The notes under the pieces are model-generated. The model made no database searches, had not been told where the DNA came from, and saw nothing but the letters and a program-made list of their open reading frames with translations. From positions 1 to 45,421 of the forward strand of contig CAJXZP010000027.1 in assembly GCA_913062955.1 (NCBI GenBank): a DNA stretch of 45,421 nucleotides. Reading direction: 5' to 3'. This stretch comes from an uncultured Flavobacteriales bacterium. GTDB lineage: Bacteria; Bacteroidota; Bacteroidia; Flavobacteriales_G; Salibacteraceae. This document shows, piece by piece, positions 5,201 to 27,549 of this stretch. The translations under genes were made by a program, and so were the position numbers. How positions within the stretch are numbered: the first letter of the stretch is position 1; the number at the start of each line of letters is the position of its first letter.

Positions 5201-6258
5201 ACAACGTGTTTATTAGGTTCCTTCCAATAAAACTCACCCGAATTGGTGCCTATCCAAAGGTTGTTTTGATAATCCTGATGAATAGCGAGGATTAATTCAT
5301 CTTTTAAACCATCCTTCGTATCCATATTGGATATTGGATTTGGGGCCAAACGAACTAAACCACCTCCATTTAAACCAATCCATATCTCCTTATTATCTCC
5401 TGGGTAAATACTCGAAATTTCGCCAGGAGGAAGTCCAAATTGGGAAGTCCATTGAATTATTTGTTTCCCATTTTTCTTAAAAAAATGATCCGTTCCACCC
5501 CCAAAAAAGAAATCTTTCCCATGCGAAACAAATTGACGTGATAGTAGGTTATAATCGGTTTTCCATAAAAACTGAGAACTCATTTTTACCGTATCAATTT
5601 GATATAGTCCACTTTGATTTGCATGATATACAAGCCCTTGGTCATCCAATATAATGGCTCGACCATCTTCCGAACTCTTACTGTTTGCCACAAACTCCAA
5701 ATCACTACCGAGTTCTCTTAACCTGTAAACTCCAGTGGAACTGGTTATCCATAAATTTTTATTCTGATCCAGAATTACCTGATCAATGAGTTCTTCCCTT
5801 AGTTCTGGATAAGGGTAAAATCGCACTTTATTATTTATTATTTCAACTGGACCCTGTCCCTGGATAATTGCAATAATAGAATGGGGGGAAACTTGTAGTA
5901 AGTCCACTACTCCTTTTCCGGGTAATCCATTATGGGTAGAATAATGGTGGAGTTTATTGTTTTTTAAATGATACAGACCATTATTTTCTGTCCCCAACCA
6001 CATGGACGAATCCCTATCTTCCAGCAAGCTGACAATACGTGCGTATTTCAGTTCGGGAAATTGAAGTTTCTCAAATTCAATTCCATCAAATTTGGCAACT
6101 CCTCCATAGGTTCCTACCCATAAATACCCATCACTCGTTCTAAGAATAGTATTCACGGAGTTTTGAGGCAATCCATCTTCGGTGGACCAATGCTTTAACC
6201 GATACCCACTTGGATCTACTCGTTCTTGCCCGGTTAAAACACTCACAAAACCAAGCAT
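2278..6258 (-). CDS. Hybrid two-component system: propeller sensor kinase + response regulator + AraC output
   Basis: A one-protein signalling system of 1326 residues from the first ATG. Order: Reg_prop propeller repeats (about 20-640), Y_Y_Y domain (about 650-722), one transmembrane helix (about 735-757), HisKA with phospho-acceptor His818 in SHELKTP, HATPase (SNALKFTP, DTGKG), receiver with phospho-acceptor Asp1124 in SDIMMP, and a C-terminal AraC-type helix-turn-helix (about 1240-1320). Such HTCS proteins sense ligands in the periplasm and activate nearby operons; the nearest downstream target is the SprB-repeat gene, but that link is inference. Start: the open frame extends upstream to a stop at 6355-6357 and encodes a basic stretch plus LLSLIL before the first ATG, completing a signal peptide that ends near LTGQ. 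A non-ATG start (for example CTG at 6306 or ATT at 6297) is therefore likely. Confidence 0.93.
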   Translation of the reverse strand: MLGFVSVLTGQERVDPSGYRLKHWSTEDGLPQNSVNTILRTSDGYLWVGTYGGVAKFDGIEFEKLQFPELKYARIVSLLEDRDSSMWLGTENNGLYHLKNNKLHHYSTHNGLPGKGVVDLLQVSPHSIIAIIQGQGPVEIINNKVRFYPYPELREELIDQVILDQNKNLWITSSTGVYRLRELGSDLEFVANSKSSEDGRAIILDDQGLVYHANQSGLYQIDTVKMSSQFLWKTDYNLLSRQFVSHGKDFFFGGGTDHFFKKNGKQIIQWTSQFGLPPGEISSIYPGDNKEIWIGLNGGGLVRLAPNPISNMDTKDGLKDELILAIHQDYQNNLWIGTNSGEFYWKEPNKHVVPYTYQVKMSSSDVWSIASDTIGNIWVGSFGDGIATCNRNNDIGFKPVENWGGESSIVLALLYDTTGDRLLAGTDRGGGFQLKNGEWTTLIKESITQARVTQFVISPDRLLYVATQGNGYKIINTNGTVIHKSIFNHLSEVSIRDIYFDQQGRTWIGTYGDGLILEMEEKFFVINTSNGLFDNLISTINEDSQGFLWMSCNQGVFKTRKQSLIDFAEGKLEKISCQVFNKSHGMGNSETNGGFQPASVMLNKHTILYPTIKGIATFNTEELINGPVLKNVIINQVAFGDSLVYPKAKISIPKEFRDIRFSYKAPSFFAPELITYEYQLEGFDTEWKSSGFNRFASYTRLAPGKYIFKVRAKNSEGVYSSVIQTLPIYFTPYFYEVLGFQVFMGLGLITFIIFLFWNTQRRAKLREIDLLNQVDFRTKDLQREKELTEEALNTVAEQGQELERINKSRSHFFANVSHELKTPLTLIKGPVSAILEKKKNTLDPQTIRDLKLVEQNSEQLNQLIVQLLDIAQSENGNIEVKNGLVNPSSLINNIVNQHKNWIEQKRIKIHIRSLSRDEIGRSDKKILEKIISNLLSNALKFTPEEGAVFISYQVKNEIFILDILDTGKGVDQEDSPYVFDRFYKSSNKYQSNLTGSGIGLAVVKEFSELLGGTVHLISPPGKGAKFTISIPFPAPVDIGTPQTLDAPIAGKNSVNGFLKTSNDCVYDSNKKEEQPLVLIVEDHQDIRSFIRGILADDYNVLEAENGVEGLLLAKQHLPDLIVSDIMMPIMDGMEMLKKLRLEKLTHFIPLVLLTAKGTEQTRIEGWKEGADAYLAKPFNSTELAIRIKTILENRGQLKQQILQSIAAGTSIPKDNRLPFEIQFEETVAHNLCNPDYSFNESLDDFAMSLSKFQRLVKEHYQITPQVYLRLKRLELAKSQIEQNSGSISEIAYSCGFNSISYFNRVFKAQFDASPTEMVLENKTTLG

Positions 6259-7434: not shown

Positions 7435-10400
7435 TTATTTTTCTTTTTTTAATTGACGTTTCAATTTTCTTTGAGATTTCTTAGTCGCTTTGTCTTTTTG
7501 CTTCTGCAGCTTCCCTTCTATCTTTAATCTGGTTTTACTTTCCTTGCTAAATTGTTTCCAGATATCCTTGTAGGCCTTTTTGGCTTCTTTTCCTTGTTTC
7601 TTTTTGATTCCGGCATTGGCTTGGACTCCCTGCAACTCAATTTTTATGAGGTAATTGATCCATCCTTTTTGAGTATTCCGCTCAAAATAGATATCCTGCG
7701 GTTTTTTGAAGTACGAATATTTGTTATTGGTCCGGACCACGGTATTCCCAATAAAGCTTCTAAATCTCTTGGCATGATGATTTTGTACTTTTAGGAATTG
7801 AAATTTAAAATCTTCATAAAAGAGCCCCATTTCACCAAATGCCAAACTATCATTCCCAATAACCTGCATCGTCATTTTATCCACCTGACCGCTGTTTATG
7901 GATGCTGAGTAACACGGTTCAATGTATGCATTTAATAAAGTAGCGTCCATACTCCCTAAAGAAGAATACATGAAAAATTGGTTGTCTGGAGTTAACATTT
8001 GATACTCCAGTTTTAAATACAAATTTGCCGTATCTAAGAATTTACTATTCATCACAATAGTCAACACAGAATCTTGATTTAGGCGAACCGTATCGTTGGT
8101 GAAATTCAATGCTTTAATATGTGTTCGTGTTAGTTTAATCACCCCACCTTTACGGCCTTCTTTCGGAAATTCTTCGTACCGTATTTTCATATCCTCTACC
8201 TGCACACTATCAAAGTATATTTTCATAGGAACCTTTTTAAATACCTCTGGAAGGATCTCTTTATGTACATCCGTTTCCGGTGCATTGCGTTTATCCTTAA
8301 AAACATTCAATAAGGGCCCCTGCACCCATATTTGACTTCCTTCTACTTCGAGGTCGTAAAGCAATTTATCAAACCTTAGATCCAGTACACTCACTTTTTG
8401 AATATTTAAATCAAATACATCTTTCTGAATCCCTCCTTTATGCAAAGCATACTCTATTCGAGGAACCGTAGGTGTGAGACTCATACGGCTCAATTCTAAC
8501 GATTGGTTTTTGGTAGAGAGCCAAAGCTTATCCGCTCCCACTTCGTAGAGACCATCATCCACCGTGGTGTAAATGTTTTGAACACTCAAACCCACGTTAT
8601 TAGCCCAAAACAACCGGTTAGAGTCCCGTTTCTCTCCTGGGAAAATATGAAAAGTGTCGACTGCTAAACTAAAGTGATCCATTTCTAGAGGAGTGGCTCG
8701 GCCATTCGCATACGTACGTAATTGCACATCCATTTTATTTACATCTATATCGTGTACCTCAATAGATTTAAACAACTTAAAATCAGGAACAGACGTAGGC
8801 ATTATGAGCGAATTATTCGTCTGACTCTTTCTAATATCTGCCTCTAAGAACCCGTTACTACTCACTATTTTTTCTATAATTAAAACAGAATCAGTTAGGT
8901 AGGAATAAATATCAGGGTTATTAAAACTTACTTTAGGTAAGTAAAAACTCAATTGTGTTTTATTACTCCCTCCCATTAGTTCGCGATTATTGAAATACAC
9001 CCCATAAACATCCAGTGCATTAGGAGAGAATGAATACTGGACACTATCCACATAATGACAAAAATTAACACCAGGTAATTGCAGACTTAAATCTTTCAGT
9101 TGTAAATCAAAATCGGAGGAGTATAAAAACCGATTTGGTGCCCATACCGAGGTTTTGGATATTTCGAAGTCCTGGGTGTACAAATCCAATTGCTTCACTT
9201 TTATCTCCAAATCATTCTTTGCCAGCTCAAAGTAACCGTTATTAATGGAAAAACCATGGGTCCGAATCATTTGAAACATTTCATTTACAAAATCAGATGG
9301 TAAGTTTTGAGGGAGTTCAAATGGCTTGGCGTTCTGTTTCTTTTTTACGGGAAGTTTGAATTTAAAACTAGGATCGTACAAGACTACCTTGCCAAGGGTT
9401 AATGTATCCATATTTTGACGTCCTAAAACACGGAATTCTGAAGCGGTTAGTTTCGGTATTTTTACTTTCATTAACGCAACAGTATCGGGTAACTTAACTC
9501 CAAATCCAGGCATCAAATTAAATCCACTAATTTCCAAATTAGAGTCATCCGATTTTCGGATTGAATCAATGCTGACCATGTATTGCTTCTCTTTAAGAGG
9601 CATAAAAAGTCTTTCTGCACCGAAATTATTGGAATCACTCGTTAATAACAGTTGTCCAAGAGATAATTTACTAGAATCTGCGACCAACAATTCGGTATCA
9701 AAAAAGCCCTTTGAGAACTTAATTAAAGAAGCGCCATCTTTTTGGATAAGTACATCCATGCTATCCAAATGAACATTTGCCAGTTTCAATATTTTCAATC
9801 CCTTTAAAAACTTTTCTAACCCACCTTTTTCGATTGGTATAGTACTGTCTGGACTAATAATATTGACTTTAGCCTCCATTTTATGCAAGTATACTTTGCG
9901 AATGTCAATCTCAGGAATGGGATATAAATGATCTAGGTCTACCCCGTTAACGATCAATAACTCGGTTTGAGTATTCGCTATAAATTTCACACCACTACTA
10001 TCCGATATATTGGGGGTGATCGCCCAATCTTTTAACTTTAATTGTCCTCCTCTCGAATCAATACTTAAAAATGAAATGTTTAAATCGTGCTGCGATTGGG
10101 GTATTTCAATTTTTACTTTGCGAACCTCAATTCGAGAACGACTAGAAAGTAAAAACTTATTCTGCTGGATACTTTGTTCATTTAAAACAAAATTATCCAG
10201 GTGAACATTCACACTTCCGATTTCATTTCTACCCTTATTTAAGTCTACTTTCCCATCGATAATATTCAGTCTCTTTACCGAATACCCCGTAATCTTATCG
10301 GTTAAAAATAGTTTTAAATCGATGTTAATGCTTTGCTTCTGGTTATTTTGGTTAACTAGTTTAAAAACAGGTTCTTTTATGTTTAATATCTCTATGTCAA

Positions 10401-11868
10401 TTTCATTTTCTAAAAGGATCTCACGGGGTTGAACTCCCAATAATTCAATAGATTTTATTTGGATATCTCTAGCTCTTTTGAATTTACTTTTGCCTCCCAT
10501 AACGGAAACATCCGTTATGATAATGGAGCTGTCATAGGTAGAGACCTCCAGTTTTCCAGCAGTAATCCTATCGCCATTCGGAATTTCAAATCGAGGATTG
10601 GCGACATCCATTTTTAAACCTTGAAATTCAGGATAGTATACTTCTTCGATCAGATCGCTTGCATCTAAAACAAAGCCTGTAAACTCTAAATTTAAATCCT
10701 TTAACTGAGCGGTATCATGGGCGGTACCAATTAATAATTCGGCATTGGCATGATTTATTATTAATTGATGAAGTTGGTATTCATCAAAAACACCTAGTAA
10801 TAATTTTATGACTCCATTGTTAACCGTGGTATCCCTATGGATTTTTGCAATGCTATGTTTCGATCGTTTCTTTTTTATAGACCCTAAAACCGCATGGATA
10901 CTTGTATTGTTGAAAATAAGGCTATCCACTTCTAATACATTTTCGGTGTACGCCTTTAAAAAATTTAAACCAATTATTCCTGCATAGGGGATATCGGTTT
11001 GATACTGATTCCAATGACTGAAATCAGTATCAAAAAATGGATGAGAAACACTATCTATTTTTAGGTTATACACTTCTACATTATTAGTCAATGTGCTAAT
11101 GATCAAGCTGTCAAAATGCATTTGATGAATTCCATCTCCAAGATCAATGGTTTGATTTTTAACGAGTACGGATACGGACTCTGTAAAAAAGAAACCCTTT
11201 TGCGCTTCCATTGCCGCACTATCCAAGAGGAAGTTCTGAATGGAAAAAGAAATATCGTTCACCGTATAATGAACCGGTACGGTGTCGTTCTGAGAAAAGT
11301 CTAAATACAGGTTATTGACTCTAAAGTCATCAATTTGGAAGGTCTTCACAAAACTTTGAACTTCCTTGTAAAAGTTACCTGTTTTGAAACTGAAATTTTG
11401 TTTTTTCTCTGGGGCTAGTAATTGGTGAATGGCAACTACTGGCTGATCTAGTGAGAAACTTTCTATATGAAGCTCCTTTTCCAAGTACACGCCCAAAATA
11501 GATTCTAAATTGATTTTTGCTGTTTGAGCGGAAAATGATATCTCTGTATTGATAACTGTATTGGAATCCATTCTTTGATAAGCAAATCCGTCCAGCGTTA
11601 TTTCACTTTCTCGCCAATCAATCAACAAGTTGTTAAATTCCACCGTGTAAATCCCTTGCGAATATTCCTCTACCTTATCCTTGATAAGTCTACCGGCTAA
11701 ATATCCCGTAACCTTAGCAAAACTTAGCACCAGTAGGAGTACGATTGCCAGAAAAATAAGGGTAATTTTCAAGCGTGTTCGTCCCCTTAAATCACCCTTC
11801 GGGGGCGTCTTTGTCTCTTCCTTTACGTTATTTATTTTGTCTTCCTCCACCACAAATACAGGCTCCAA
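7435..11868 (-). CDS. Giant AsmA-like membrane-anchored envelope protein
   Basis: 1477 residues. A basic cytoplasmic N-terminus (about 1-32) precedes one transmembrane helix (about 34-53, LIFLAIVLLLVLSF). The remainder is a very long, beta-rich region of short alternating strands, with many DSxxIxxxxG-type segments and no enzymatic motif. Near the C-terminus GEMGLFYEDFKFQFL resembles the end of AsmA/DUF748-like domains, whose members (AsmA, YhdP, TamB) form elongated grooves between membranes and act in lipid transport or outer-membrane assembly. The last 55 or so residues are extremely Lys-rich (KKQGKEAKK...KRQLKKEK). The family call is by architecture and weak motif similarity. It is the last gene on this strand before the tRNA, with a 210-bp gap to the methyltransferase upstream, so it is probably transcribed alone. 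Confidence 0.6.
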   Translation of the reverse strand: MEPVFVVEEDKINNVKEETKTPPKGDLRGRTRLKITLIFLAIVLLLVLSFAKVTGYLAGRLIKDKVEEYSQGIYTVEFNNLLIDWRESEITLDGFAYQRMDSNTVINTEISFSAQTAKINLESILGVYLEKELHIESFSLDQPVVAIHQLLAPEKKQNFSFKTGNFYKEVQSFVKTFQIDDFRVNNLYLDFSQNDTVPVHYTVNDISFSIQNFLLDSAAMEAQKGFFFTESVSVLVKNQTIDLGDGIHQMHFDSLIISTLTNNVEVYNLKIDSVSHPFFDTDFSHWNQYQTDIPYAGIIGLNFLKAYTENVLEVDSLIFNNTSIHAVLGSIKKKRSKHSIAKIHRDTTVNNGVIKLLLGVFDEYQLHQLIINHANAELLIGTAHDTAQLKDLNLEFTGFVLDASDLIEEVYYPEFQGLKMDVANPRFEIPNGDRITAGKLEVSTYDSSIIITDVSVMGGKSKFKRARDIQIKSIELLGVQPREILLENEIDIEILNIKEPVFKLVNQNNQKQSINIDLKLFLTDKITGYSVKRLNIIDGKVDLNKGRNEIGSVNVHLDNFVLNEQSIQQNKFLLSSRSRIEVRKVKIEIPQSQHDLNISFLSIDSRGGQLKLKDWAITPNISDSSGVKFIANTQTELLIVNGVDLDHLYPIPEIDIRKVYLHKMEAKVNIISPDSTIPIEKGGLEKFLKGLKILKLANVHLDSMDVLIQKDGASLIKFSKGFFDTELLVADSSKLSLGQLLLTSDSNNFGAERLFMPLKEKQYMVSIDSIRKSDDSNLEISGFNLMPGFGVKLPDTVALMKVKIPKLTASEFRVLGRQNMDTLTLGKVVLYDPSFKFKLPVKKKQNAKPFELPQNLPSDFVNEMFQMIRTHGFSINNGYFELAKNDLEIKVKQLDLYTQDFEISKTSVWAPNRFLYSSDFDLQLKDLSLQLPGVNFCHYVDSVQYSFSPNALDVYGVYFNNRELMGGSNKTQLSFYLPKVSFNNPDIYSYLTDSVLIIEKIVSSNGFLEADIRKSQTNNSLIMPTSVPDFKLFKSIEVHDIDVNKMDVQLRTYANGRATPLEMDHFSLAVDTFHIFPGEKRDSNRLFWANNVGLSVQNIYTTVDDGLYEVGADKLWLSTKNQSLELSRMSLTPTVPRIEYALHKGGIQKDVFDLNIQKVSVLDLRFDKLLYDLEVEGSQIWVQGPLLNVFKDKRNAPETDVHKEILPEVFKKVPMKIYFDSVQVEDMKIRYEEFPKEGRKGGVIKLTRTHIKALNFTNDTVRLNQDSVLTIVMNSKFLDTANLYLKLEYQMLTPDNQFFMYSSLGSMDATLLNAYIEPCYSASINSGQVDKMTMQVIGNDSLAFGEMGLFYEDFKFQFLKVQNHHAKRFRSFIGNTVVRTNNKYSYFKKPQDIYFERNTQKGWINYLIKIELQGVQANAGIKKKQGKEAKKAYKDIWKQFSKESKTRLKIEGKLQKQKDKATKKSQRKLKRQLKKEK

Positions 11869-12806: not shown

Positions 12807-15800
12807 ATGAAAATAAAAGTAATTCTTACCAGTATCCTTACCCTACTCCATGTATTGGCTATCAGCCAAACCAAGTTATTATACACCCCTTCGGGTAAAG
12901 CTATTGACAAGGGAATTAAAGCGCATGACAAGGAAAATTACAAGTCGGCTTTAAACTATTACAACAAGGTGCACCCTGGAGATACCAATTATCATTTAGC
13001 ACAGTATGAGAAAGCCATGACCTATTTCGCTATGGAGGATTTTGAATCAGCGATCGAGATTTCAAAGAAAGAAATTGGGGATATTAAATATGTAACCAAT
13101 AGCTTTTATAATCTCCTAGGGAATGCATACGATGAAGCGGATCAAAAAGAAAAAGCCATTGAAGTTTATACCGAAGGGATTTCTAAGTTTCCTACCTTTT
13201 ATCGCTTGTATTACAACCGAGCGGTTACACTCGAGCGCATGGAGAGGCCCCAGGAGGCCATCGAAGATTTGAAGAGAGCGTTACAGTACAATCCTTATCA
13301 CGCTTCCTCCCATTTAAAAATGGCAAACTATGCCAAAGAGGAAGGACAAGTTACCAAAGCGATGATGGCGTACAACGCCTTTTTATTATTAGCTAACTCC
13401 AAAGAATCAGAGACTCTTTCGGAATACAACGATTATTTAGGAGAGGAATATGATAACGACCCAATTGACATCGAATTATCTACCGATGACTATTCAGATA
13501 TGGATGAATTGTTAGCTTCAGGTATCACCCAAAGTAAAAAGTACAAAACCCCCAATAAGCTGTCTCTACCTATGGTAAAACAAAATTACCTATTGATGAC
13601 TGAGCTTCAAAAGCGTACCCTAACGGATGGTTTTTGGGATTCTTTTTACGTGCCCTTTTACCTAAAAATAATGTCAGACGATAAGTTTAATGATTTGATG
13701 TATTACCAATTACGTTCCGCCACTAATGGGAGCATTGTTTCGGTACTAAATAAAAATATAAAGGCCATTAGCGCCTTCCCTGATTATGCCGGTCCAGTAT
13801 GGCAAAGCACCCATTCTGACCGCAAAGAGCTGTATGATGGAAAGGAACAAGAAGTTCATTATTACTGGGCCAATTCAAGTGCCATAGAAGGACGCGGAGT
13901 GGTTGTAGACAACGAACCTACGGGAGTTTTTGAATACTACTTCTCCACCGGACGTATCCAAGCACTAGGTCATTACGATATGGATGGCGAACGTAATGGA
14001 TCCTGGGTTTATTATTTTCAAAACGGGAATATATCGGGAAAAGAAATGTACCAAGAAGGGGATGTGATTGGATTGGATACCAGTTTTTATAAAAATGGAT
14101 ATGTAAAATCATCTACGTCCTATATGGATGGTAAACCAAATGGAAAGGAAATGAATTACTCGGGATTTGGAATCCTTCAAAGCGAGCTCATTTATGAAAA
14201 TGGGGACCTTTCCGGTCCTGCCAAATATTACAATGAGGTGGGTACTTTAGAGTATGATTTAAATTATTTGGAAGATGAAATTTCGGGTGATTTTATAGAA
14301 TACCACGACAATGGTCAAATATTTGAAAAGGTTCCTTTTGAATTTGGCAAAAGGCACGGGCAAGGAATTCGATTTTATGATAACGGTCAGAAAAGCGGTG
14401 AATACCATTATGTGCATGGAGATTTAGAGGGGCCACTTACCAAATGGTACCAAGACGGAACCATCAAATCCGAAGGAGAATACAAGGAAGGAATAATGGT
14501 AAATACCCAAAAGGACTATTACCCCAATGGAAAACTAGAATCAGACCAATTGTATGATGAAAACGGAAAAAAAACCGGTCGTTACAAAGAATATGATGAA
14601 GATGGAAATTTAAACCTTCAATTAGATTACAAAAAAGGAGATTTGATCGCCTATGCCGTTTTTCAAAAAGATGGTTCTTTAATTAAGGAAGCGAAAAAGA
14701 AAGGAGGAAACTTTTTGTTTGAAAACTTCTATTCCGATGGAACAAAAAAAGCTATTGGCTCGTATGTACCGGGTAACAAAGGGAAAGATGGGGTGTGGAA
14801 GTTTTATAACTATAATGGTAAATTAGATTCTGAAGGATCCTACTCTAGTGGAGAACAATATGGACAAAGTATTGATTATTATCCTTCCGGGAAAAAGAGG
14901 AAAACCACTACTTATAAGCACAACGAAGCCAACGGCCTATATGTAGAATATTATGAAAGTGGAGCCGTTTCGGAACAGGGATATTACGTCAATGACGAAC
15001 AAGAAGGATTATGGATTTCCTATTACCCTAACGGGACTATTTCTGGAGAGGCATTTTTTGTTCAAGGATTGTTGAACGGACCCCGAAAATCATTTTGCGT
15101 GAATGGAAAAATTGATTTAGTGGATTATTACGATAGAGATCTCCATACGGGATATGATGTTTTTGATACCAATGAAGTAGTCATTCAAAACGTGCAAATA
15201 TCGGGCGATTCCACTCTTTACGCTGTTAAATATGCTACGGGTGATTTATTACGAAAATTTACTATTGTGGGTAGTATTTCGCATGGAGAATCTATAAACT
15301 ACTACCCTTCTGGGCAAGTAAAGGCAAAAGGAAATTATGTCAATGGCAATAAGAATGAGGAATGGGTGTGGTTTTACAGCAATGGCCAAGAAAAACAAAA
15401 AGGATGGTATGCGAACGGCAGTAAAGAAGGTAAATGGGAATATTATTATGAGAATGGGAAGTTGAAACTGATTGAAAGTTACTTGAATGGATCATTAAAT
15501 GGTGAAAGAACATGGTATTATCCAAATGGAACACTAGAGGTTCAATACCAGTATGCATTTGGGAAATTGAACGGAAACACCACCTATTATGACGGAAATG
15601 GAGTTATTCAACACATCCGCTTGTATACCCATGGAAAATTTGTAGGATATTCCTATTTAGGGGCGGATGGAAATCCTATAGCTGTAATTCCTGTAAAAAA
15701 TGAAACGTGCGAATGCGTGTCCTATTTCAGTAATGGCAAAAAATCACGTGAATTCTCGGTAGCGGGAGATAATTTTAATGGACTATATACCGATTATTAT

Positions 15801-16073
15801 GAAAATGGTCAAATCCATGCGCAGAAAACGTATAAAAACAATCAATACCAAGGGGACCACACGTATTACTATGACAATGGTCAAGTAATGAAAGTAACGC
15901 ATCGAATTGATGATGCCATTGAAGGAGTGGTCAAACACTTTAACGTGGATGGTTCTTTACAAAAAACAGAAATGCATGTACAAGACGAACTGCACGGGCC
16001 AACTACCTATTACAAATCGGGGAAAGTGGTTAAAACAGAGATGTTTTACGATGGGGTTTTAATTTCGAAATAA
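12807..16073 (+). CDS. Exported TPR + MORN/YwqK-type repeat protein
   Basis: 1088 residues with a signal peptide (about 1-20, cleavage near AISQ). Residues about 25-215 form TPR-like helical repeats (NYKSALNYYNK, KAIEVYTEGISKFP, EAIEDLKRALQYNP). From about 375 to the end there are roughly 25-30 repeats of about 22-24 residues of the form G.w.yYypnGki..eg.Y..g, i.e. the MORN_2 variant found in YwqK-family proteins. Such repeats form extended beta surfaces; a scaffold or surface role in the periplasm is inference. It is the first gene of a four-gene operon: its TAA overlaps the next ATG (TAATG at 16071-16075), implying coupled translation. No enzymatic motif is seen. The repeats are diverged, unlike the near-identical SprB units at the left edge. 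Confidence 0.85.
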   Translation: MKIKVILTSILTLLHVLAISQTKLLYTPSGKAIDKGIKAHDKENYKSALNYYNKVHPGDTNYHLAQYEKAMTYFAMEDFESAIEISKKEIGDIKYVTNSFYNLLGNAYDEADQKEKAIEVYTEGISKFPTFYRLYYNRAVTLERMERPQEAIEDLKRALQYNPYHASSHLKMANYAKEEGQVTKAMMAYNAFLLLANSKESETLSEYNDYLGEEYDNDPIDIELSTDDYSDMDELLASGITQSKKYKTPNKLSLPMVKQNYLLMTELQKRTLTDGFWDSFYVPFYLKIMSDDKFNDLMYYQLRSATNGSIVSVLNKNIKAISAFPDYAGPVWQSTHSDRKELYDGKEQEVHYYWANSSAIEGRGVVVDNEPTGVFEYYFSTGRIQALGHYDMDGERNGSWVYYFQNGNISGKEMYQEGDVIGLDTSFYKNGYVKSSTSYMDGKPNGKEMNYSGFGILQSELIYENGDLSGPAKYYNEVGTLEYDLNYLEDEISGDFIEYHDNGQIFEKVPFEFGKRHGQGIRFYDNGQKSGEYHYVHGDLEGPLTKWYQDGTIKSEGEYKEGIMVNTQKDYYPNGKLESDQLYDENGKKTGRYKEYDEDGNLNLQLDYKKGDLIAYAVFQKDGSLIKEAKKKGGNFLFENFYSDGTKKAIGSYVPGNKGKDGVWKFYNYNGKLDSEGSYSSGEQYGQSIDYYPSGKKRKTTTYKHNEANGLYVEYYESGAVSEQGYYVNDEQEGLWISYYPNGTISGEAFFVQGLLNGPRKSFCVNGKIDLVDYYDRDLHTGYDVFDTNEVVIQNVQISGDSTLYAVKYATGDLLRKFTIVGSISHGESINYYPSGQVKAKGNYVNGNKNEEWVWFYSNGQEKQKGWYANGSKEGKWEYYYENGKLKLIESYLNGSLNGERTWYYPNGTLEVQYQYAFGKLNGNTTYYDGNGVIQHIRLYTHGKFVGYSYLGADGNPIAVIPVKNETCECVSYFSNGKKSREFSVAGDNFNGLYTDYYENGQIHAQKTYKNNQYQGDHTYYYDNGQVMKVTHRIDDAIEGVVKHFNVDGSLQKTEMHVQDELHGPTTYYKSGKVVKTEMFYDGVLISK

Positions 16074-18001
16074 TGAAGCATATTGGATTAGTCGTAATTT
16101 CTATACTCATTGGCTTTGGGGTGTTTGCACAACCTCAAGCCGAGCTTGAAAAATACCAAGCTTTGTATCCGGGGATGCAAATGGTAGTATTGGAAAAGGT
16201 CGAAGAAATTCGAATTGAGCAATACCGAGGCAAATTATTCATTTATGAAACGACTTATACCAAAAACATGTATCTCACGAAGGATGCTGGAATGTTTAGG
16301 GAACGGGAAATAGGGTTCTCGTCTTTTAGCTCCATTAGTGAAATCAGCGCCACTACCCTAGTTCCTACGGCAAAAAAGTACAAAAAGAACGTCACCAAAG
16401 AGTTTAAAGAATCAGATGATTTAAACTCGAGTGTTTTTCATGATGACTCCAAAATTATCCGTTTTAACTTTCTTGGATTGCAAATGGGAGCTATTACTGA
16501 ATTGAGGTACAAACGAAAAATAAAAGACCCTCACTTTTTAGGTCGTGCGGTTTTACAAGGAAGGTTTCCTATTGAAAACCAAGTATATCGAGTAGTTGTT
16601 AATGCGGATATAGAAGTTGAATTTACAGCCTATTTAGTACAACAAGATTACATTACTTACACCACCTTTAAAGAGAACGGGAGAACCATTTATGAATGGA
16701 CGGTTAAAAATGCTCCCGTCATCCATTCAGAAAAATGGGCTCCAGCAATGAGTTATTATTTACCACAGGTGTTTCCTCGGGTGGCGAGTTATACCTATAA
16801 TGGTAAAACTACCCGGGTATTAGGAAATGTAAAAGACTTATTTACGTGGTACGAAACGTTTGTAGACACCGTAAATACGGACACGGATAACCCGTTGATA
16901 CAAGCCACGGTTGATTCCATAGTTACCGGGGCTACGACAGATTTGGAGAAAGTGAAACGGGTATTTGAATGGACCCAAGAAAACATCAAGTATGTCGCTT
17001 ATGAAGCTGGACTCGGAGGTTTCGTTCCTCGTTCGGCCATTTCTGTGTGCACCAACAGGTATGGTGATTGTAAAGATATGGCCAGCACCATCACCCATCT
17101 ATTAAAGTATGCCGGAATTGAAGCCCATCTCACATGGATTGGAACCAATGCGATCCCCTTTACTTACGACCAACTCCCTACCCCTTCGGTCGACAACCAT
17201 ATGATTGCCACCTATATTTCGGAGGATGGCACGCATTATTTCATGGACGCTACGGGTAGGTACATGCCATTTGGTATGCCCAGTTCATTTATTCAAGAGC
17301 AAGAAGCTTTGATCCGATTGGGTCCCGGTTCTTTTGAAACCCTAAAAGTTCCCTTGGTAGCACCGGCTCAAAACGCCATTGACGATAAAATTAACGCCAC
17401 CTTAGTAGATGGTGTTTTTACTGGAAGTGCGGTGAGTTCGTTTAACGGTTATTACAAACAAAATTTGGAATATAAAATTGAAGATCAAACTCCGGATGAA
17501 AAAGCCAAATTCTATAAAGGGTACTTACGAAAAGGAAGTAATAAATTTATTCCGGATGGCTTTGAAGAAAGTCATGCCTATCCCGATGAGCAACCCTTTG
17601 AAATAGCCTATAACTTCACCATTGGTGATTATGCAATGGTGAATGGGAAGGAATGGTATGTCAATTTGAACTTGAGCGACTTCTTTTCAGGTGACAAGTT
17701 AGATCCCGAGAGAAAAACGCCTTTTATGTTCAAGTTTACCGCTAAACAAACCGAGACTGTCGCATTCACAATTCCAGAGGGGTTTTCACTGGACTATACT
17801 CCAAAACCTTTAGAAATCAATAATGAGCTGCTGTATTTCAAGGTTAGTTATACCGTTCAGGATAAAATCATTACCTTGAATACAGAATCTTACAAAAAGA
17901 AAATTTATTACCAAGCATCGGATGTAACCCTTTGGAACACCAGTGTTAACTCCATTATTAAATCGCAAAAAAATGTCGTTATCCTTAAGAAGACTAACTA
18001 A
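16073..18001 (+). CDS. DUF3857 / transglutaminase-fold protein, catalytic triad intact
   Basis: 642 residues with a signal peptide (about 1-19, ending VFAQ). The N-terminal half matches the DUF3857 beta domain and the centre is a transglutaminase-like core. The Cys-His-Asp triad is present: Cys333 in YGDCKDM, His376 in VDNHMIA and Asp392 in FMDATG. Members act on proteins or peptides in the envelope as transglutaminases, amidases or proteases; the substrate is unknown. A beta-rich C-terminal domain follows. The start overlaps the upstream stop by one base, and the 3' end overlaps the next gene by 29 bp. An active enzyme paired with a non-catalytic paralogue next door suggests the two work together. 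Confidence 0.88.
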   Translation: MKHIGLVVISILIGFGVFAQPQAELEKYQALYPGMQMVVLEKVEEIRIEQYRGKLFIYETTYTKNMYLTKDAGMFREREIGFSSFSSISEISATTLVPTAKKYKKNVTKEFKESDDLNSSVFHDDSKIIRFNFLGLQMGAITELRYKRKIKDPHFLGRAVLQGRFPIENQVYRVVVNADIEVEFTAYLVQQDYITYTTFKENGRTIYEWTVKNAPVIHSEKWAPAMSYYLPQVFPRVASYTYNGKTTRVLGNVKDLFTWYETFVDTVNTDTDNPLIQATVDSIVTGATTDLEKVKRVFEWTQENIKYVAYEAGLGGFVPRSAISVCTNRYGDCKDMASTITHLLKYAGIEAHLTWIGTNAIPFTYDQLPTPSVDNHMIATYISEDGTHYFMDATGRYMPFGMPSSFIQEQEALIRLGPGSFETLKVPLVAPAQNAIDDKINATLVDGVFTGSAVSSFNGYYKQNLEYKIEDQTPDEKAKFYKGYLRKGSNKFIPDGFEESHAYPDEQPFEIAYNFTIGDYAMVNGKEWYVNLNLSDFFSGDKLDPERKTPFMFKFTAKQTETVAFTIPEGFSLDYTPKPLEINNELLYFKVSYTVQDKIITLNTESYKKKIYYQASDVTLWNTSVNSIIKSQKNVVILKKTN

Positions 18002-19955
18002 TTCTATCCTTTTATTATTATGGATCTCCCTACCTGGTTTTGTTTTTTCAAAAACTCAATTAAATACGTATGATTGGGATCTGAAAATGGAAACCCCAGT
18101 AATACCGGACTCTTTAAAAAATGAACCTCAAATATATTTCAAGAAATACCAAAAAGTAGAGTTTGCTTTTGTAGACAAAAAGTTCATTCAGATGGAAGTT
18201 TTACACGAATTATTTTGGGTAAATTCAGACGAAGCAATCGATAGAAACAACAAAGTATATATTCCTATGGGAAAAGGGATCGATGTTCTTTCGACTAAAG
18301 CACGTGTGATAAACCCAGATGGTAAAATAACCCAATTGGATGAAGAGGACGTAAAGGAACTACGAGATGAAAATGAAAACACGGCCTATTATTTTGCTTT
18401 AAAAGGCATCGAAATCGGATCCTACATTGAATATTTCTATGTGATTAAAAAATCTGCGAGTTATACCGGATCTCGGAAAGTAGCGCAAGAATTAGCTCCC
18501 GTGTTTGATTATCAATTTGATCTGATATCCCCGCAACATTTAATTTTTGCTACTAAAAGCTACAATGGCTTTGGCGAATTGGAGGAGGATACATTTGATG
18601 AAGAATACAATCATGTGCTAAAACGAGTGAAATATATCCCGAAATTTGAAAAAGAAGATCAAGCCTACAATTTCCCGAATAGAATGGCAATCATGTACAA
18701 ACTAGAAGAAAATACAGGTTCTGGTGCCCATCATATCATCTCCTATGAATCTATTGGTAAAAACTTGATTAAGTCCTACACCGTTTCTACCAAAGCAGAC
18801 GCAAAAGGAATGAAAAGTATGATGAAGTCAGCCGCAATAGATGAAACCCAATCGGATTTGAAGAAGCTTCAAGATTTAGAATACTACTTCAAAACCCATT
18901 TCAGTATTTATCAGTCCAATACCCCTGATCTAGCTGATTTATCGTTTGTTTTAAAAAATAAGGTATCGAGTTCTCAAGGGTTTCTTAAGTTTATGGCTTT
19001 GGCCTGTAGGCAATTTAATATTGAGTATCGTTTTGTCATTACTGCCAGTAGAAAAAGTATGGCGTTTGATCGGGATTTTGAGGCTTACAACTTTCTACAA
19101 CAATATTTAATGTACTTCCCTCGGGAAGAGGTATATATGAATATGGAGGATAAATTAGAACGAATTGGATTTGTAAACCCCGATTTTCAAGATAATTATG
19201 GTGTTTTCTTTAAAAAAATAGAGGTAGGAGATATTGTTTCGGCTACCTATAAAATCAAATGGATTGAAGCTCCAGGTGCGCATGAATCTATGAGCGAAAT
19301 GGACATGAAAATCAAGGTTGCTGATGATTTCAGTTACTTAGAATTTGACTTAATCAATTCTACTTCTGGTTTCAATTCGTATAATGTTCAGCCCTACTTC
19401 GGATTAATTACTCCCGAGAAGGAAGAAGAATTAAAAGAAGACTTAATAAAATGGGTAGATCCAGACATGGATTTACACGAGGTAAGCGCTGATAATACAG
19501 GCTATGCCAATGTGGGAATTAAACCCTTAGTTATTAAAGGAACCTTTTCTGTAGATAAATACATTGTTCCGGTTAAAGATAAATACTTGATCAAATTGGG
19601 TCTATTTATAGGACCCCAAGCGGAAATGTATCAAGATGGAAAAGCACGCACCTTACCTGTAGACATGGGCTTTAGAAAGAATTACCATAGAGTCCTTAAA
19701 TTTGAAATTCCTAAAGGATATAAAGCTACCAATTTGGAGGCCATCTCAATGAATGTTTTAGCTCAAGAGGAAGATGGAACCGTTTACGCTGATTTTATCA
19801 GTATCTATTCTTTAGAAGGCAATATCCTAACGGTTACTTGTGATGAACGCTACCACAAAATTCATTATCCCGTGGCGCAATATGAGGACTATAGGAACGT
19901 GATCAATGCAGCCGCTGATTTTAATAAAATTGTGATTTATTTAGAAGAAATTTAA
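17973..19955 (+). CDS. DUF3857 / transglutaminase-like paralogue lacking the catalytic Cys
   Basis: I chose the ATG at 17973 because it gives a clean signal peptide (about 1-26, LLLLWISLPGFVFS); a GTG at 17943 would add ten residues. 661 residues, same overall layout as the gene before it: an N-terminal DUF3857-like domain and a central transglutaminase-like region. Aligned by hand on the shared helix ending ...NIEYR / ...GIEAH, the catalytic YGDCKD becomes VSSSQG, placing Ser334 where the neighbour has Cys333, and no DNH or DATG counterpart is obvious. It is therefore probably a pseudo-enzyme with a binding or regulatory role. It overlaps the previous gene by 29 bp and the next by one base (TTTAATGG), so all four genes are tightly coupled. 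Confidence 0.8.
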   Translation: MSLSLRRLTNSILLLLWISLPGFVFSKTQLNTYDWDLKMETPVIPDSLKNEPQIYFKKYQKVEFAFVDKKFIQMEVLHELFWVNSDEAIDRNNKVYIPMGKGIDVLSTKARVINPDGKITQLDEEDVKELRDENENTAYYFALKGIEIGSYIEYFYVIKKSASYTGSRKVAQELAPVFDYQFDLISPQHLIFATKSYNGFGELEEDTFDEEYNHVLKRVKYIPKFEKEDQAYNFPNRMAIMYKLEENTGSGAHHIISYESIGKNLIKSYTVSTKADAKGMKSMMKSAAIDETQSDLKKLQDLEYYFKTHFSIYQSNTPDLADLSFVLKNKVSSSQGFLKFMALACRQFNIEYRFVITASRKSMAFDRDFEAYNFLQQYLMYFPREEVYMNMEDKLERIGFVNPDFQDNYGVFFKKIEVGDIVSATYKIKWIEAPGAHESMSEMDMKIKVADDFSYLEFDLINSTSGFNSYNVQPYFGLITPEKEEELKEDLIKWVDPDMDLHEVSADNTGYANVGIKPLVIKGTFSVDKYIVPVKDKYLIKLGLFIGPQAEMYQDGKARTLPVDMGFRKNYHRVLKFEIPKGYKATNLEAISMNVLAQEEDGTVYADFISIYSLEGNILTVTCDERYHKIHYPVAQYEDYRNVINAAADFNKIVIYLEEI

Positions 19956-20626
19956 TGGACCAAGATTTAATACTCGACTTTGAGGAGAATCCTATCGCAG
20001 GAATTAATGAAGCCAATGTGCTTTACAAAATTTGGACGCGTCCGAAAGATACCATCCACTTTCTTTTAAAAAACCACCCAGGTAAATACATGCCTATACT
20101 TTTAGTTTTAGGTGGTATTTCCAGTGCTATCAGTAAATGGTCGGAAAAAAATGACGTAGGAGCGGAGGGGTTTTGGTTAGGTATGGTGTATGCTACGGTA
20201 GGTGGCGCCTTATTAGGATGGATCTTTTATTACATCTATGCGTGGGCTTTAAGTGCCACTGGAAAATGGTTAAAAGGTACCGGGACAGCCATTGAAATGC
20301 GAACAGTGGTGAGTTGGTCGCTCATTCCATCTATTGTTACCCTTTTATTGATTGTGCCCGAAGAATACTTTTCCATGCGAATTAATGACATGCTGTACGC
20401 AGATTATATGGAACGTGAATCTCTATTTCTTATGGAAGAAATTGCCTTGTATCTGGTAATTGCTATGGAAGTGATATTAGCCATATGGGGGATCTATATT
20501 TCCATAGAAGGCGTGTCCTATGTTCAAGGATTTTCGAGATGGAAATCATTTGGGAACTTAATACTCCCCATCCTGGTCCTTATTATTCCGGTGTTCATAG
20601 TGGTATTCATTTTCGCCAGCTTATAG
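19955..20626 (+). CDS. Yip1-like integral membrane protein
   Basis: 223 residues with a cytoplasmic-looking N-terminus (WTRPKDTIHFLL, similar to the start of bacterial YIP1 domains) and five predicted transmembrane helices (near residues 45-60, 70-98, 110-132, 150-172 and 195-218). Bacterial Yip1-family proteins have no firm biochemical role. Its ATG overlaps the stop of the DUF3857 paralogue, making it the last gene of the operon and its only obvious inner-membrane component; the other three encode proteins with signal peptides. Confidence 0.75.
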   Translation: MDQDLILDFEENPIAGINEANVLYKIWTRPKDTIHFLLKNHPGKYMPILLVLGGISSAISKWSEKNDVGAEGFWLGMVYATVGGALLGWIFYYIYAWALSATGKWLKGTGTAIEMRTVVSWSLIPSIVTLLLIVPEEYFSMRINDMLYADYMERESLFLMEEIALYLVIAMEVILAIWGIYISIEGVSYVQGFSRWKSFGNLILPILVLIIPVFIVVFIFASL

Positions 20627-24740: not shown

Positions 24741-25199
24741 CTACTTCACTCCAATCCAAATCTCCGCTTCACCATTGGTAGGATCCATGGCTTTTTCGCC
24801 ATACACCTCTATATCGGTTTTATAGGTTCTATTTAAGTCGCTTTGCCAAATTTTTGTCCACGCATCAATAACGGCATTCTCGGTCAGATTCCCTTTAGCA
24901 GTAAACGTTTCGTATTCGGCTACAGGAATGGTTTTAACCGTTAAATCCTTTGGAACATTCTCACCACTAGTTACTTCAAACCCCAACATCATCGTATAAG
25001 GTTTTGTATGGTCTCCTTCATAATCGGTATACACGGCATACATGGTGGAACAGGCTAAATCGCTTAGTTTTTCCGCAATATTGGCCTGCATGAATTTACC
25101 CCATAACTGAGGAATAGCTTGCTCCGCTTGTCCGGCATCGTTACGGGTTCTTATTTCCATTCCAGCAATAAGTAATTCTTTTGTAATTGACTTTTTCAT
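24741..25199 (-). CDS. GyrI-like / effector-binding domain protein
   Basis: 152 residues forming one stand-alone effector-binding domain of the GyrI/AraC-C-terminal type: an opening strand (ELLIAGMEIRT), a central VYTDYEGDHTKPYTMMLGFEV and a C-terminal IEVYGE...AEIWIGVK. There is no DNA-binding domain and no signal peptide, so it is cytoplasmic. Family members bind small hydrophobic or cationic ligands, and some hydrolyse or sequester toxic compounds; the ligand here is unknown. It is divergent from the MacAB-type efflux operon across a gap of about 410 bp, a setting in which a drug-binding role is plausible but unproven. Confidence 0.8.
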   Translation of the reverse strand: MKKSITKELLIAGMEIRTRNDAGQAEQAIPQLWGKFMQANIAEKLSDLACSTMYAVYTDYEGDHTKPYTMMLGFEVTSGENVPKDLTVKTIPVAEYETFTAKGNLTENAVIDAWTKIWQSDLNRTYKTDIEVYGEKAMDPTNGEAEIWIGVK

Positions 25200-25221
25200 A
25201 TGTAATAATTTTAGGTTTCCA

Positions 25222-25229
25222 CAAAACTA
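25222..25229 (-). promoter_or_regulatory. -7 box of the GyrI-like gene
   Basis: On the minus strand this reads TAGTTTTG, a perfect TAnnTTTG match, 22 bases before the start codon. A TTG lies about 23 bases further upstream (25253-25255), somewhat wider than the usual spacing. Confidence 0.5.
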
Positions 25230-25611
25230 GAAGCAGGAAAGACAGATGGTGTCAAGGGTGTTTTTATCTTTCTTAAAAAGGGGTATCCGCATTTTCTGTT
25301 TATATTTTCACCTTCCTTCTATCCCATTTGTTTTGTCCTGTTTTTCGTCTTTAAAACCATCTTAACCCCCATTATTTTTAGGGTTATTTCCATTATATTA
25401 ATCCATACACCCCCATCTGAAATATTTCACAGCAACAATTACAGGTGTAATACCCTTAAAATCAATATTTAAGAATTGATCTCGTCATTTGAATTACAAA
25501 TATGGGATTTGAACTACACCCATTCACCTTGGCCACCAACCGCTAAACGAAAACTCGTTGCAATCCTACAACTCACTCCCTAATTTGGTCATTGTTTACA
25601 AATACATTGCC
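25230..25611. other. Divergent regulatory gap before the efflux operon
   Basis: No gene supported. A TTG-initiated extension from 25558 would add 18 polar residues to the adaptor and is disfavoured. A small inverted repeat, TTACAGGTGTAA, lies near 25439-25450. I found no clean promoter for the plus-strand operon. Confidence 0.4.
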
Positions 25612-26853
25612 ATGGATAAACCGATACAAAAAAGCAAATTCAAAATCAAGACATACCTGTTTATTGCCCCGGGATTGGCGGTACTATTTGGTATTTCCTA
25701 TTTGGCTTTTACTGCGAATTCAAATGCCATGTATTACCCAAATGATCAATTACAGATTGCGGAGATCATACAAGGGGAATTTTCAGAATCCATTTCTACC
25801 CATGGAACGGTAATCCCGAGTCAAACCATTCAAATTGATGCTTTTGAAGGAGGCGTTATTGAGGAAATCATGGCGGAGAATGGGCAATCTATTGTGAAGG
25901 GTACTCCCCTATTAAAATTGAGTAATATGTCCTTGTCGTTAGATTTCATGAACCGGGAAACTCAAATAATAGAGCAAATCAATAACCTTAGGAATACCCG
26001 AATCAATTTAGAGCAGAACAAACGTAATGTACAAGAACAGTTGATAGATATCCGTTATGAACTGATCCAACAGGAAGCACAATTTGCCAGAGACAGTGTA
26101 TTGTACCACCAAAATGTGATTACCCAATCGGTTTTTGAGTCGAGTTGGAATTACATCCAGTATTTACAAAACAAAAAGGCGCTATTGGAAAACAGAACCC
26201 AAACGGATGAAAAATACCGATTAAGTCAGATGCAACGTATCGACAATTCCATTCTCCTTATGGAACGCAACCTAGAAGCAGTGAGAAAGAGTTTAACCCA
26301 ACTCACGGTCACGGCTCCATTAACGGGCCAATTGAATTCCTTTCAACACGAACTGGGAGCAACTATGCGTAAAGGCGAGCGTATTGGACGGATAGATATT
26401 ATGGATACGTTCCATATTAGAGCACATGTAGATCAGTATTTTCTCAATCAGATTGAAATAGATCAGTTGGCTCGCATAAAACTAGATGGAAAGGAACAGC
26501 ACTTATCGATCGCAAAGATATTCCCTACGGTAACGGATAATCAATTCGAAATACATTTTCGATTTAAGGATCAGCAACCAAAGAATTTACGGAGAGGCCA
26601 AAGTGCTCCCTTAAAAATTCAATTAAGTAATCAATCCAAAGCAGTACTTATTCCTAAGGGCAGTTTTTATTCCTCTGGAGGGGGTAAATATGTATTTGTA
26701 GTCCACGGAAATGAAGCCCAAAAAACCCCGGTGAAATTGGGCCGTCAAAACGATAAATACATTGAGGTAATAAACGGCTTAATACCCGGTGATCGGGTGA
26801 TCATCTCTCCGTACACCAATTTTAGAAACAACGATTTAATACTTATTCAATAA
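25612..26853 (+). CDS. Periplasmic adaptor subunit of a MacAB-type efflux ABC transporter (HlyD/MacA family)
   Basis: 413 residues from the ATG at 25612, chosen because it gives a short basic N-terminus (KPIQKSKFKIK) before one transmembrane anchor (about 14-33, LFIAPGLAVLFGISYLAF). The order is then a barrel-sandwich half (VIEEIMAENGQSIVKG), a long coiled-coil hairpin (about 105-215), the second half (LTVTAPLTGQL) and C-terminal beta domains (GLIPGDRVIISPY). Such adaptors link an inner-membrane transporter to an outer-membrane TolC-type channel. The ATPase and permease genes follow within 10 and 2 bp, so the three form an operon. No TolC gene is present nearby. Confidence 0.9.
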   Translation: MDKPIQKSKFKIKTYLFIAPGLAVLFGISYLAFTANSNAMYYPNDQLQIAEIIQGEFSESISTHGTVIPSQTIQIDAFEGGVIEEIMAENGQSIVKGTPLLKLSNMSLSLDFMNRETQIIEQINNLRNTRINLEQNKRNVQEQLIDIRYELIQQEAQFARDSVLYHQNVITQSVFESSWNYIQYLQNKKALLENRTQTDEKYRLSQMQRIDNSILLMERNLEAVRKSLTQLTVTAPLTGQLNSFQHELGATMRKGERIGRIDIMDTFHIRAHVDQYFLNQIEIDQLARIKLDGKEQHLSIAKIFPTVTDNQFEIHFRFKDQQPKNLRRGQSAPLKIQLSNQSKAVLIPKGSFYSSGGGKYVFVVHGNEAQKTPVKLGRQNDKYIEVINGLIPGDRVIISPYTNFRNNDLILIQ

Positions 26854-26863
26854 ACGCAAATCA

Positions 26864-27547
26864 ATGATTAACACAACCAATTTAACGAAGATATTTACGA
26901 CTGAAGAAATAGAAACTACGGCATTAAACAACATCAACATTCGTATTGATAAAGGAGAGTTTGTAGCCGTCATGGGAGAATCGGGATGCGGGAAATCTAC
27001 ACTTCTCAACACCCTGGGTTTATTGGATACTATAAGTGATGGTCAATTAATATTTAATGGTACCGATGTGAGTCAATTTAAAGAATCGCAACGCGCTATT
27101 TTGAGAAAGAACCAAATTGGATTCATTTTCCAAAGTTTTAATTTAATTGATGAGTTAACCGTATTTGAAAATATTGAACTGCCACTCACTTATCAAAACA
27201 TAGATAAACAAAAACGAAAGCTTATGGTCACTCAAACCTTGGAAAAAGTGAATATGGGACATCGGGCAAACCATTTTCCGCAACAATTATCGGGTGGACA
27301 ACAACAAAGGGTGGCTATTGCGCGTGCCATTGTACACGAACCCAGGTTATTATTAGCGGATGAACCTACGGGAAATTTGGATTCCAAAAATGGAACAGAC
27401 GTCATGAATTTATTAACGGATTTAAATGCGGAAGGTGCCACTATCATAATGGTGACCCATTCTACTCGAGATGCAAAATATGCACATCGGAAAATCAATT
27501 TGTACGATGGGCAAATAATTAGCTCTTCCAAACCTGTAAATGCGTAA
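26864..27547 (+). CDS. MacB/LolD-type ABC transporter ATP-binding subunit
   Basis: 227 residues, a complete nucleotide-binding domain: Walker A GESGCGKST (38-46), Q-loop FIFQSFNLID, signature LSGGQQQRVAIARA, Walker B LLLADEPTGNLDS and the switch His in MVTHS. It belongs to the LolD/MacB/FtsE group, which powers transporters that move substrates from the periplasm rather than importing across the inner membrane. It is the middle gene of the adaptor-ATPase-permease operon, separated from the permease by 2 bp. Confidence 0.95.
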   Translation: MINTTNLTKIFTTEEIETTALNNINIRIDKGEFVAVMGESGCGKSTLLNTLGLLDTISDGQLIFNGTDVSQFKESQRAILRKNQIGFIFQSFNLIDELTVFENIELPLTYQNIDKQKRKLMVTQTLEKVNMGHRANHFPQQLSGGQQQRVAIARAIVHEPRLLLADEPTGNLDSKNGTDVMNLLTDLNAEGATIIMVTHSTRDAKYAHRKINLYDGQIISSSKPVNA

Positions 27548-27549
27548 GT

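Follow-up and report, generated by a model that had tools for sequence, protein, structure and literature searches.

A conserved three-gene unit of Bacteroidia with active and degenerate transglutaminase-fold proteins and a MORN-repeat protein

Four overlapping genes on a Flavobacteriales contig

The window, by which we mean the whole 45,421-nucleotide stretch analysed here from an uncultured Flavobacteriales bacterium, carries four adjacent genes, all on the + strand as are the features within them. Gene 1 (12807..16073) encodes a probably exported TPR and MORN_2 protein of 1088 aa, gene 2 (16073..18001) a DUF3857 and transglutaminase-core protein of 642 aa with an intact triad, gene 3 (17973..19955) a 660-aa DUF3857 protein with a degenerate transglutaminase fold that lacks the catalytic Cys, and gene 4 (19955..20626) a Yip1-family membrane protein of 223 aa. 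Open reading frames and Pfam matches bear out the first-pass annotation on gene order, on domain content and on the overlaps of 1, 29 and 1 bases between the genes. The start given for gene 3 is the ATG at 17973; its longest ORF begins earlier, with a GTG at 17943.

In gene 1, MORN_2 (PF07661) scored 151.9 bits (cut-off 29.6), with 11 stretches passing individually at E 1, and TPR was also matched. Gene 2 scored 62.6 bits for DUF3857 (PF12969; cut-off 24.6) and 41.9 bits for Transglut_core (PF01841; cut-off 23.0). The corresponding scores of gene 3 were 38.6 and 23.7 bits, the latter borderline, and gene 4 matched Yip1 (PF04893) at 63.9 bits (cut-off 28.6). Signal peptides had been proposed for the first three products. 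By a Kyte-Doolittle rule only, each has a strongly hydrophobic start, with best 11-residue means near the N-terminus of 2.3, 2.9 and 2.2 for genes 1, 2 and 3, and the identical rule detected such a start in 55/55 MORN, 52/55 active and 54/55 dead homologues. The products of genes 1-3 are thus probably exported, as far as their sequences indicate. Gene 4 had been credited with five membrane helices; four separate membrane-like stretches were detected at the cut-off used, so that five are plausible and not confirmed.

Gene order and co-occurrence across Bacteroidota

Conserved order of all four families had been put forward as a sign of a functional system. This holds for genes 1-3 and fails for gene 4. 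Among 84 loci with the dead paralogue, the active gene lies directly upstream in 74 of the 80 that offer a contig view. The MORN, active and dead genes are contiguous, in that order, at 57 of 76 assessable loci (a contig edge being an upstream view of <600 bases), these 57 coming from 26 families, and one further full module occurs in genome G602. Distances between module genes are mostly overlaps or <30 bases, as measured on longest ORFs, which inflates the overlaps across loci. The flanking genes vary between genomes, so that the tightly spaced block persists amid changing neighbours. Chance or generic synteny was considered and rejected, as only one accessory cluster of nearby genes (blastp 1e-8, genes of at least 90 aa, within 6 kb) occurs in more than four families. 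Its 12 genes, from 8 families, encode a TPR protein of about 310 aa; the next cluster, of a broad sugar-nucleotide enzyme type, reaches 4 families.

Across 395 genomes of the class, the dead gene was found in 76 and the active gene in 75, with 75 genomes sharing both. A full-length MORN protein was found in 62 of the 395, and 56 of these 62 also hold the active and dead genes. The cuts behind these counts (dead, at least 229 bits; active, at least 446; MORN, at least 493) were chosen after viewing the lists and the sets were compiled manually; the Fisher values for co-occurrence ignore relatedness. The active set includes contig-edge fragments of G286 and G241 and excludes G052, G407 and the second G228 match, which belong to the type B pairs described below. 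Class-scale searches scored two to three candidates per genome. Twenty dead-gene genomes lacked a full-length MORN protein, and in 16 of them none was found with up to 48 candidates scored; the other four, G231, G241, G268 and G286, are contig-edge cases. The active and dead genes were found apart in five genomes (G084, G214, G236, G275 and G319). Distance matrices of the three module proteins correlate with r of 0.53-0.71 (one locus per family), for which shared descent alone could suffice. In combination, the order, the co-occurrence, the triad pattern and the near-constant repeat array, the last two detailed below, are kept across families, and on these grounds the three-gene unit is real.

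A place for Yip1 as a fourth component was tried with profiles in 42 genomes of the order and rejected, as it adjoins the module in the window's genome only. In the window's two nearest relatives, G008 and G009, the place of gene 4 is taken by an unrelated protein of 194 aa; at E 0.001, G008 has no Yip1 and G009 has one, on a different contig. A relative of the window is represented by contig CAJXPI010000012.1 of an uncultured Flavobacteriales. At 42 of 82 loci a same-strand downstream neighbour (at least 90 aa, starting -120 to +150 bases from the end of the dead gene) is present. Yip1 was not among the families common to at least two of these 42 neighbours; with 25 of all 72 families listed, a single Yip1 case could be hidden. 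A tblastn search of gene 4 against loci L037-L189 matched only the window's copy and two purposely added Yip1 loci, and would miss distant relatives, since the added Yip1 loci L186 and L187 went unmatched. Gene 4 looks like a local passenger. As it was not found beside the module in relatives, the role of membrane anchor that had been suggested for the Yip1-like protein falls away.

Active and dead paralogues

Cys-His-Asp are the catalytic residues of the transglutaminase-like superfamily. In gene 2, sequence and alignment place the putative catalytic residues at Cys333 (codon 17069..17071), His376 (17198..17200) and Asp392 (17246..17248). Each of the three is present in 68/68 full-length active homologues, and conservation of the protein is highest around the active site. 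A profile alignment of the paralogues sets C333, H376 and D392 of gene 2 against S334, Q376 and N390 of gene 3. In all 80 dead homologues the catalytic Cys is absent from the aligned column and a G[DEN]C motif is absent from the catalytic region; in 12 of them a Cys lies about four columns or less from the aligned site, never in such a motif. At the level of sequence, the description of the two neighbours as an active and a dead transglutaminase-fold protein is therefore upheld, with the triad intact in gene 2 and the Cys missing from gene 3. In gene 3, conservation is highest near the C-terminus, where the near-invariant motif VINAAADFNK (19899..19928) retains N in 78, F in 77, the second N in 77 and K in 79 of the 80 aligned homologues. 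The AlphaFold model of gene 3, built on a two-sequence alignment, had a mean pLDDT of 31.7 and was left out of further analysis.

The pair resembles known DUF3857 and Transglut_core proteins such as PDB 3kd4, which the gene 2 profile matches at E 1.9e-7, and both genes pass the cut-offs of both families; however, these domain families alone imply neither a kept active-dead pair nor a MORN partner. Searched against PDB, the gene 3 profile matched no structure with DUF3857; its matches were two endoplasmin rows, at E about 0.08.

A tree of 90 proteins places type A active and dead proteins in separate clades (30/30 each, support 0.693 and 0.987). A second set of pairs, type B, has no MORN gene and splits along the same line of the tree (support 0.824). 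In a type B pair, as in the module's, the gene immediately downstream of the active one encodes a larger partner that lacks the GDC motif, and the two members fall on the respective sides of the tree alongside the module's active and dead proteins. The type B pair differs in that the partner is about 660-790 aa and matches the gene 3 profile weakly (50-106 bits), with no match for the G078 partners. As type B divides likewise, the duplication into active and dead forms looks older than both pair types, judging from this tree.

No MORN profile match was detected in the 16 type B loci examined, and the module's own pair occurs without MORN upstream at 13 assessable loci from 11 families, as well as in G516, of another class, and in G712. 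The MORN gene is thus dispensable to the pair. Conversely, six genomes from two genera have a full-length MORN protein and no detected active gene, a result unchanged by a recheck with a search that had no positive control. All three observations suit an explanation in which only the active-dead pair forms a complex and the MORN protein is a functionally separate member of the operon, perhaps one that binds lipid or sits at the surface and is needed under the same condition. We regard this as possible though unlikely: MORN directly upstream at 57 of 76 loci in 26 families exceeds a loose association, 56 of the 62 MORN genomes hold the pair too, and the six solo cases are confined to those two genera.

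The repeat protein and a proposed mechanism

The TPR region of gene 1, delimited by Pfam stretches, covers about aa 36-200 (12912..13406). A MORN_2 array lies at aa 364-1072 (13896..16022), with about 29.5 units of 24 aa; self-identity at an offset of 24 residues is 0.20, against 0.06-0.08 at neighbouring offsets. Among 55 orthologues, the array span is within 8 residues of the window's 708 in 46 and is longer by 15-22 residues in the other nine. Whole proteins are 1085-1142 aa long (longest ORFs), the exception being G015, in which the gene is split into two ORFs. The array thus has a near-constant length despite a mean identity of about 28% between families; the frame-length spread of other MORN-type matches is an uncontrolled comparison for this constancy. 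A scaffold role for gene 1 would fit such an array.

The AlphaFold model of gene 1 rests on a two-sequence alignment (mean pLDDT 44.0); at this low confidence it shows a helical first third followed by hairpins, and supports no more. TPR structures match its residues 26-117 with Z of about 10-11. MORN scaffold structures match parts of residues 436-648 with Z of about 8 to 10.7; for the aligner used, repeats with Z under about 13 may reflect only a common arrangement. Gene 1 shares a beta-hairpin repeat array with known MORN scaffolds (MORN1 of Toxoplasma, Plasmodium and Trypanosoma; SET7/9, radial-spoke proteins and junctophilin). It differs from them in that its array is much longer and of the MORN_2 variant, the protein is probably exported, and it has a TPR head and a near-constant length across families. 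Rhs and teneurin YD-repeat shells are, like gene 1, long chains of short hairpins, and were the top Foldseek rows for the same low-confidence model (E down to 9.6e-16), but with a TM-score of 0.07 and an rmsd near 39 A the match is no superposition. Rhs proteins are absent from the best 50 rows of a second aligner, which does not exclude them.

A repeat-type match of gene 1 to the LIC20035-family adhesin model (NF033566) raises another explanation, namely that the product of the operon is an adhesin or a similar array exposed at the surface, with the transglutaminase-like enzyme as its maturation protease. The DUF3857 relative 3kd4 is titled 'Putative protease'. The adhesin match reaches 107.1 bits, far below the curated cut-off of 250, and among the nearby genes covered no recurring surface-export gene was seen in the flanks. 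We consider this very improbable.

The first-pass annotation had allowed gene 1 to be either scaffold or substrate. As a substrate, the MORN protein would be crosslinked by the active enzyme into a polymer or onto another envelope component, with the dead paralogue presenting it. Gene order and spacing agree with this, a long, repetitive and probably exported protein would be a plausible crosslinking substrate, and K247 and Q259 are conserved in 87% and 82% of the 55 MORN proteins. Among residues conserved in at least 90% of them, however, there is no Lys, and the sole Gln is Q21, at the probable end of the signal peptide. This scarcity mildly weakens a substrate role, and pairs also occur without any MORN gene. 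On balance crosslinking of gene 1 seems improbable.

The explanation that we favour, holding it with about even confidence, is that genes 1-3 form a conserved functional unit of Bacteroidia consisting of an exported scaffold, an enzyme and its dead partner, with gene 4 as a passenger. It builds on the observed gene content, order, spacing, co-occurrence, triad presence and loss, and constant array. The three products would be exported to the periplasm or envelope. There gene 2, as a Cys-His-Asp thiol enzyme of the transglutaminase fold, would be acylated by a protein or peptide substrate to give an acyl-enzyme, whose acyl group it would then transfer or, as a peptidase, release by hydrolysis. 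Gene 3, an apparently ancient dead paralogue that is nearly always present, would most likely form a heterodimer with gene 2, through its strongly conserved C-terminal domain, and would set stability or substrate choice. Gene 1 would serve as a rigid scaffold of nearly constant length, built of about 29.5 MORN_2 hairpins behind a TPR head, that docks the enzyme pair and positions it beside its target. More tentatively, and with the odds against it, the unit may be an envelope machine of Bacteroidia in which the thiol enzyme and its dead twin act on the MORN scaffold, the array being constant in length because it is a ruler or closed enclosure that sets the reach of the enzyme.

Such an exported three-gene machine seems not to have been described previously. 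By titles and the starts of abstracts, no description of the unit was among the matches listed from a literature collection short of most subscription papers, and DUF3857 together with transglutaminase gave no match there. DUF3857 itself appeared in one paper of that collection, as a passing mention (PMC6341742). The unit joins scattered unknown domains into a single testable system of enzyme, pseudoenzyme and scaffold. A repeat array that stays so constant in length between families with a mean identity of about 28% is unusual and raises the question of what the length is for. A single deletion or point mutation is enough to take out the pseudoenzyme, the scaffold or the active site separately.

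Gene order of the module

Reading of the open reading frames (ORFs) bore out four plus-strand genes at 12807-20626 of the window, overlapping by 1, 29 and 1 bases. The domains described in the first-pass annotation are accurate by Pfam, with TPR and MORN_2 repeats in gene 1 (MORN), DUF3857 and a transglutaminase core in both gene 2 (the active paralogue) and gene 3 (the dead paralogue), and Yip1 in gene 4. The five membrane helices attributed to gene 4 were not confirmed, as simple hydropathy gave four stretches.

A survey of 42 genomes of the window's order gave matches to genes 1, 2 and 3 that adjoin one another in an unchanged sequence. They are contiguous in G000, G008, G009, G037, G034, G010, G033 (contig C5), G035, G041, G015 and G005, with some module genes split into two ORFs in the last two. 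The splits fall near the junction of DUF3857 and the transglutaminase core in both paralogues of G005 (locus L048) and in the dead paralogue of G015 (L047), where the MORN gene is split too. They reflect either a frameshift (real or an assembly error) or gene fission, and the second pieces have no evident signal peptide. In G030 the contig begins within gene 2, and G033 has an extra copy of the gene 2-gene 3 pair, without a MORN gene, on contig C55.

We searched 395 genomes of the class with a dead-paralogue profile, fetched 71 loci from outside the order set, and classified 84 dead-paralogue loci, those of the order included. MORN, active and dead genes occur together at 57 of the 84, active and dead genes without MORN upstream at 13, and a dead gene without an active gene upstream at 6; contig ends cut four pairs and four single dead genes. 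Of the 80 dead-gene loci with the neighboring position in view, 74 have the active gene immediately upstream. Five genomes (G084, G214, G236, G275 and G319) have the active gene elsewhere, and the dead gene is not downstream of it. The sixth locus lacking an upstream active gene, on contig C17 of G248, is an additional copy; that genome has a complete module as well.

The dead gene was found in 76 of the 395 class genomes and the active gene of the module kind (type A) in 75, all 75 of these having both; in the sole dead-only genome, G268, a contig end interrupts the locus. Full-length MORN was detected in 62 genomes, 56 of them also with both paralogues, using score cuts for co-occurrence that were chosen after the lists had been inspected. 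Two genera account for the six MORN-only genomes, and a recheck of these six found no active gene. In two genera, loci L151-L156 encode full-length members of this MORN family with no transglutaminase pair next door.

In a sample of 395 genomes from across the phylum, which overlaps that of the class, 12 matches had E 1e-40 or better, one of them outside the class (G516, a pair without MORN). In the same sample, G712 has a pair without MORN and G602, within the class, has the full module. Conserved gene order across Bacteroidota held for genes 1-2-3, with MORN upstream of the active gene in 57 of 76 loci with a view, from 26 families; it failed for gene 4, whose place is otherwise filled in relatives of the order. 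Genes 1-3 are a real, widespread three-gene unit, of which we found no description in the searchable literature.

Active and dead paralogues

By profile alignment, C333, H376 and D392 of gene 2 face S334, Q376 and N390 of gene 3. The C-H-D triad is present in all 68 full-length active proteins of the set. Among 80 dead proteins, none has Cys in the aligned column, two have the His and nine the Asp, and the complete triad occurs in none. In 12 of them a Cys lies no more than about four columns from the site, but the G[DEN]C motif is absent from this region in all 80. Conservation peaks around the active site in gene 2 (residues 301-400), and at the C-terminus (VINAAADFNK) and around residues G543-R573 in gene 3.

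DUF3857 pairs also occur in another form, type B (L167-L182), in which the active protein has immediately after it a larger partner (about 660-790 aa) that lacks the GDC motif; these loci contain no MORN match. In a midpoint-rooted tree of 90 proteins, type A active and dead proteins form separate clades (30/30 each; support 0.693 and 0.987). Active proteins of both types fall on one side (support 0.824), and type A dead proteins and type B partners on the other. The type B partner clade has support of 0.159, and type B actives alone form no clade. As type B pairs divide along the same line as type A, the division of labor between active and dead proteins looks, from the sequences, older than the association with MORN. 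We infer that MORN was recruited once the pair existed and was later lost in places, which fits the early-branching position of the MORN-less G104 and G384 among dead proteins.

The MORN protein and a proposed working

A low-confidence model of gene 1 has a helical first third followed by beta hairpins, and portions of this model can be aligned with solved structures of TPR and MORN proteins. Self-identity is 0.20 at an offset of 24 residues versus 0.06-0.08 at neighboring offsets. The span from residue G364 to residue G1072 is 708 residues in the window, 702-716 in 46 of 55 orthologues and 723-730, longer by less than one repeat, in the other nine, at a mean between-family identity of 27.7%. 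In the six solo MORN proteins it is 709-711 residues in five and 736 in one. Other MORN- or TPR-type proteins among the matches to the MORN profile listed below 200 bits, full-length members excluded, have frames of 251 to 631 aa, which is not a controlled comparison. Of all the module's features, this near-constant array length is the most unexpected.

The best-conserved residues of MORN proteins are mainly structural glycines. At 90% conservation there is no Lys and only one Gln, Q21, which argues mildly against a role as substrate, although K247 (87%) and Q259 (82%) fall only a little below this level. Most simply, the MORN protein would be a scaffold. The module products are probably exported, judging by their N-terminal hydrophobic stretches, and gene 2 presumably encodes a thiol acyl enzyme, as the chemistry of its superfamily suggests, with transfer and hydrolysis both compatible with its sequence. 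Enzyme-pseudoenzyme pairs exist as a general precedent, and by analogy the dead paralogue would most simply be the partner of the active one.

Gene 4 and the flanking genes

Gene 4 was rejected as a module component, since relatives carry other proteins in its place, and it looks like a passenger. G008 and G009 have an unrelated protein of 194 aa at this position, G033, G041 and G015 (L043, L046 and L047) an Lnb-family protein (Lnb_N and 5TMH_Lnb), and G035 a different protein. The Lnb-family cases come from three genera of the window's family, and in them the gene overlaps the end of the dead gene.

Several families have a TPR protein of about 310 aa next to the block (12 genes from 8 families in all), which could be a fourth, optional component. 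It lies directly downstream in G162, G221, G273, G378 and G228 (L082, L084, L090, L092 and L099), and directly upstream in G191, G288, G230 and G295 (L081, L095, L131 and L136). The remaining flanks vary among genomes, except for sets common within families, such as Cupin_5 and YjbR.

Elsewhere in the window, 2278-6258 on the minus strand encodes a hybrid two-component regulator with Reg_prop propellers, Y_Y_Y, HisKA, HATPase_c, receiver and AraC-type HTH domains. Positions 7435-11868 encode a protein of 1477 aa that has a hydrophobic stretch close to the N-terminus and matches no Pfam family at 1e-5. An efflux-type cluster at 24741-29961 comprises a GyrI-like protein followed by HlyD-type, ABC ATPase and MacB/FtsX proteins; all four occur in the same order in L038.
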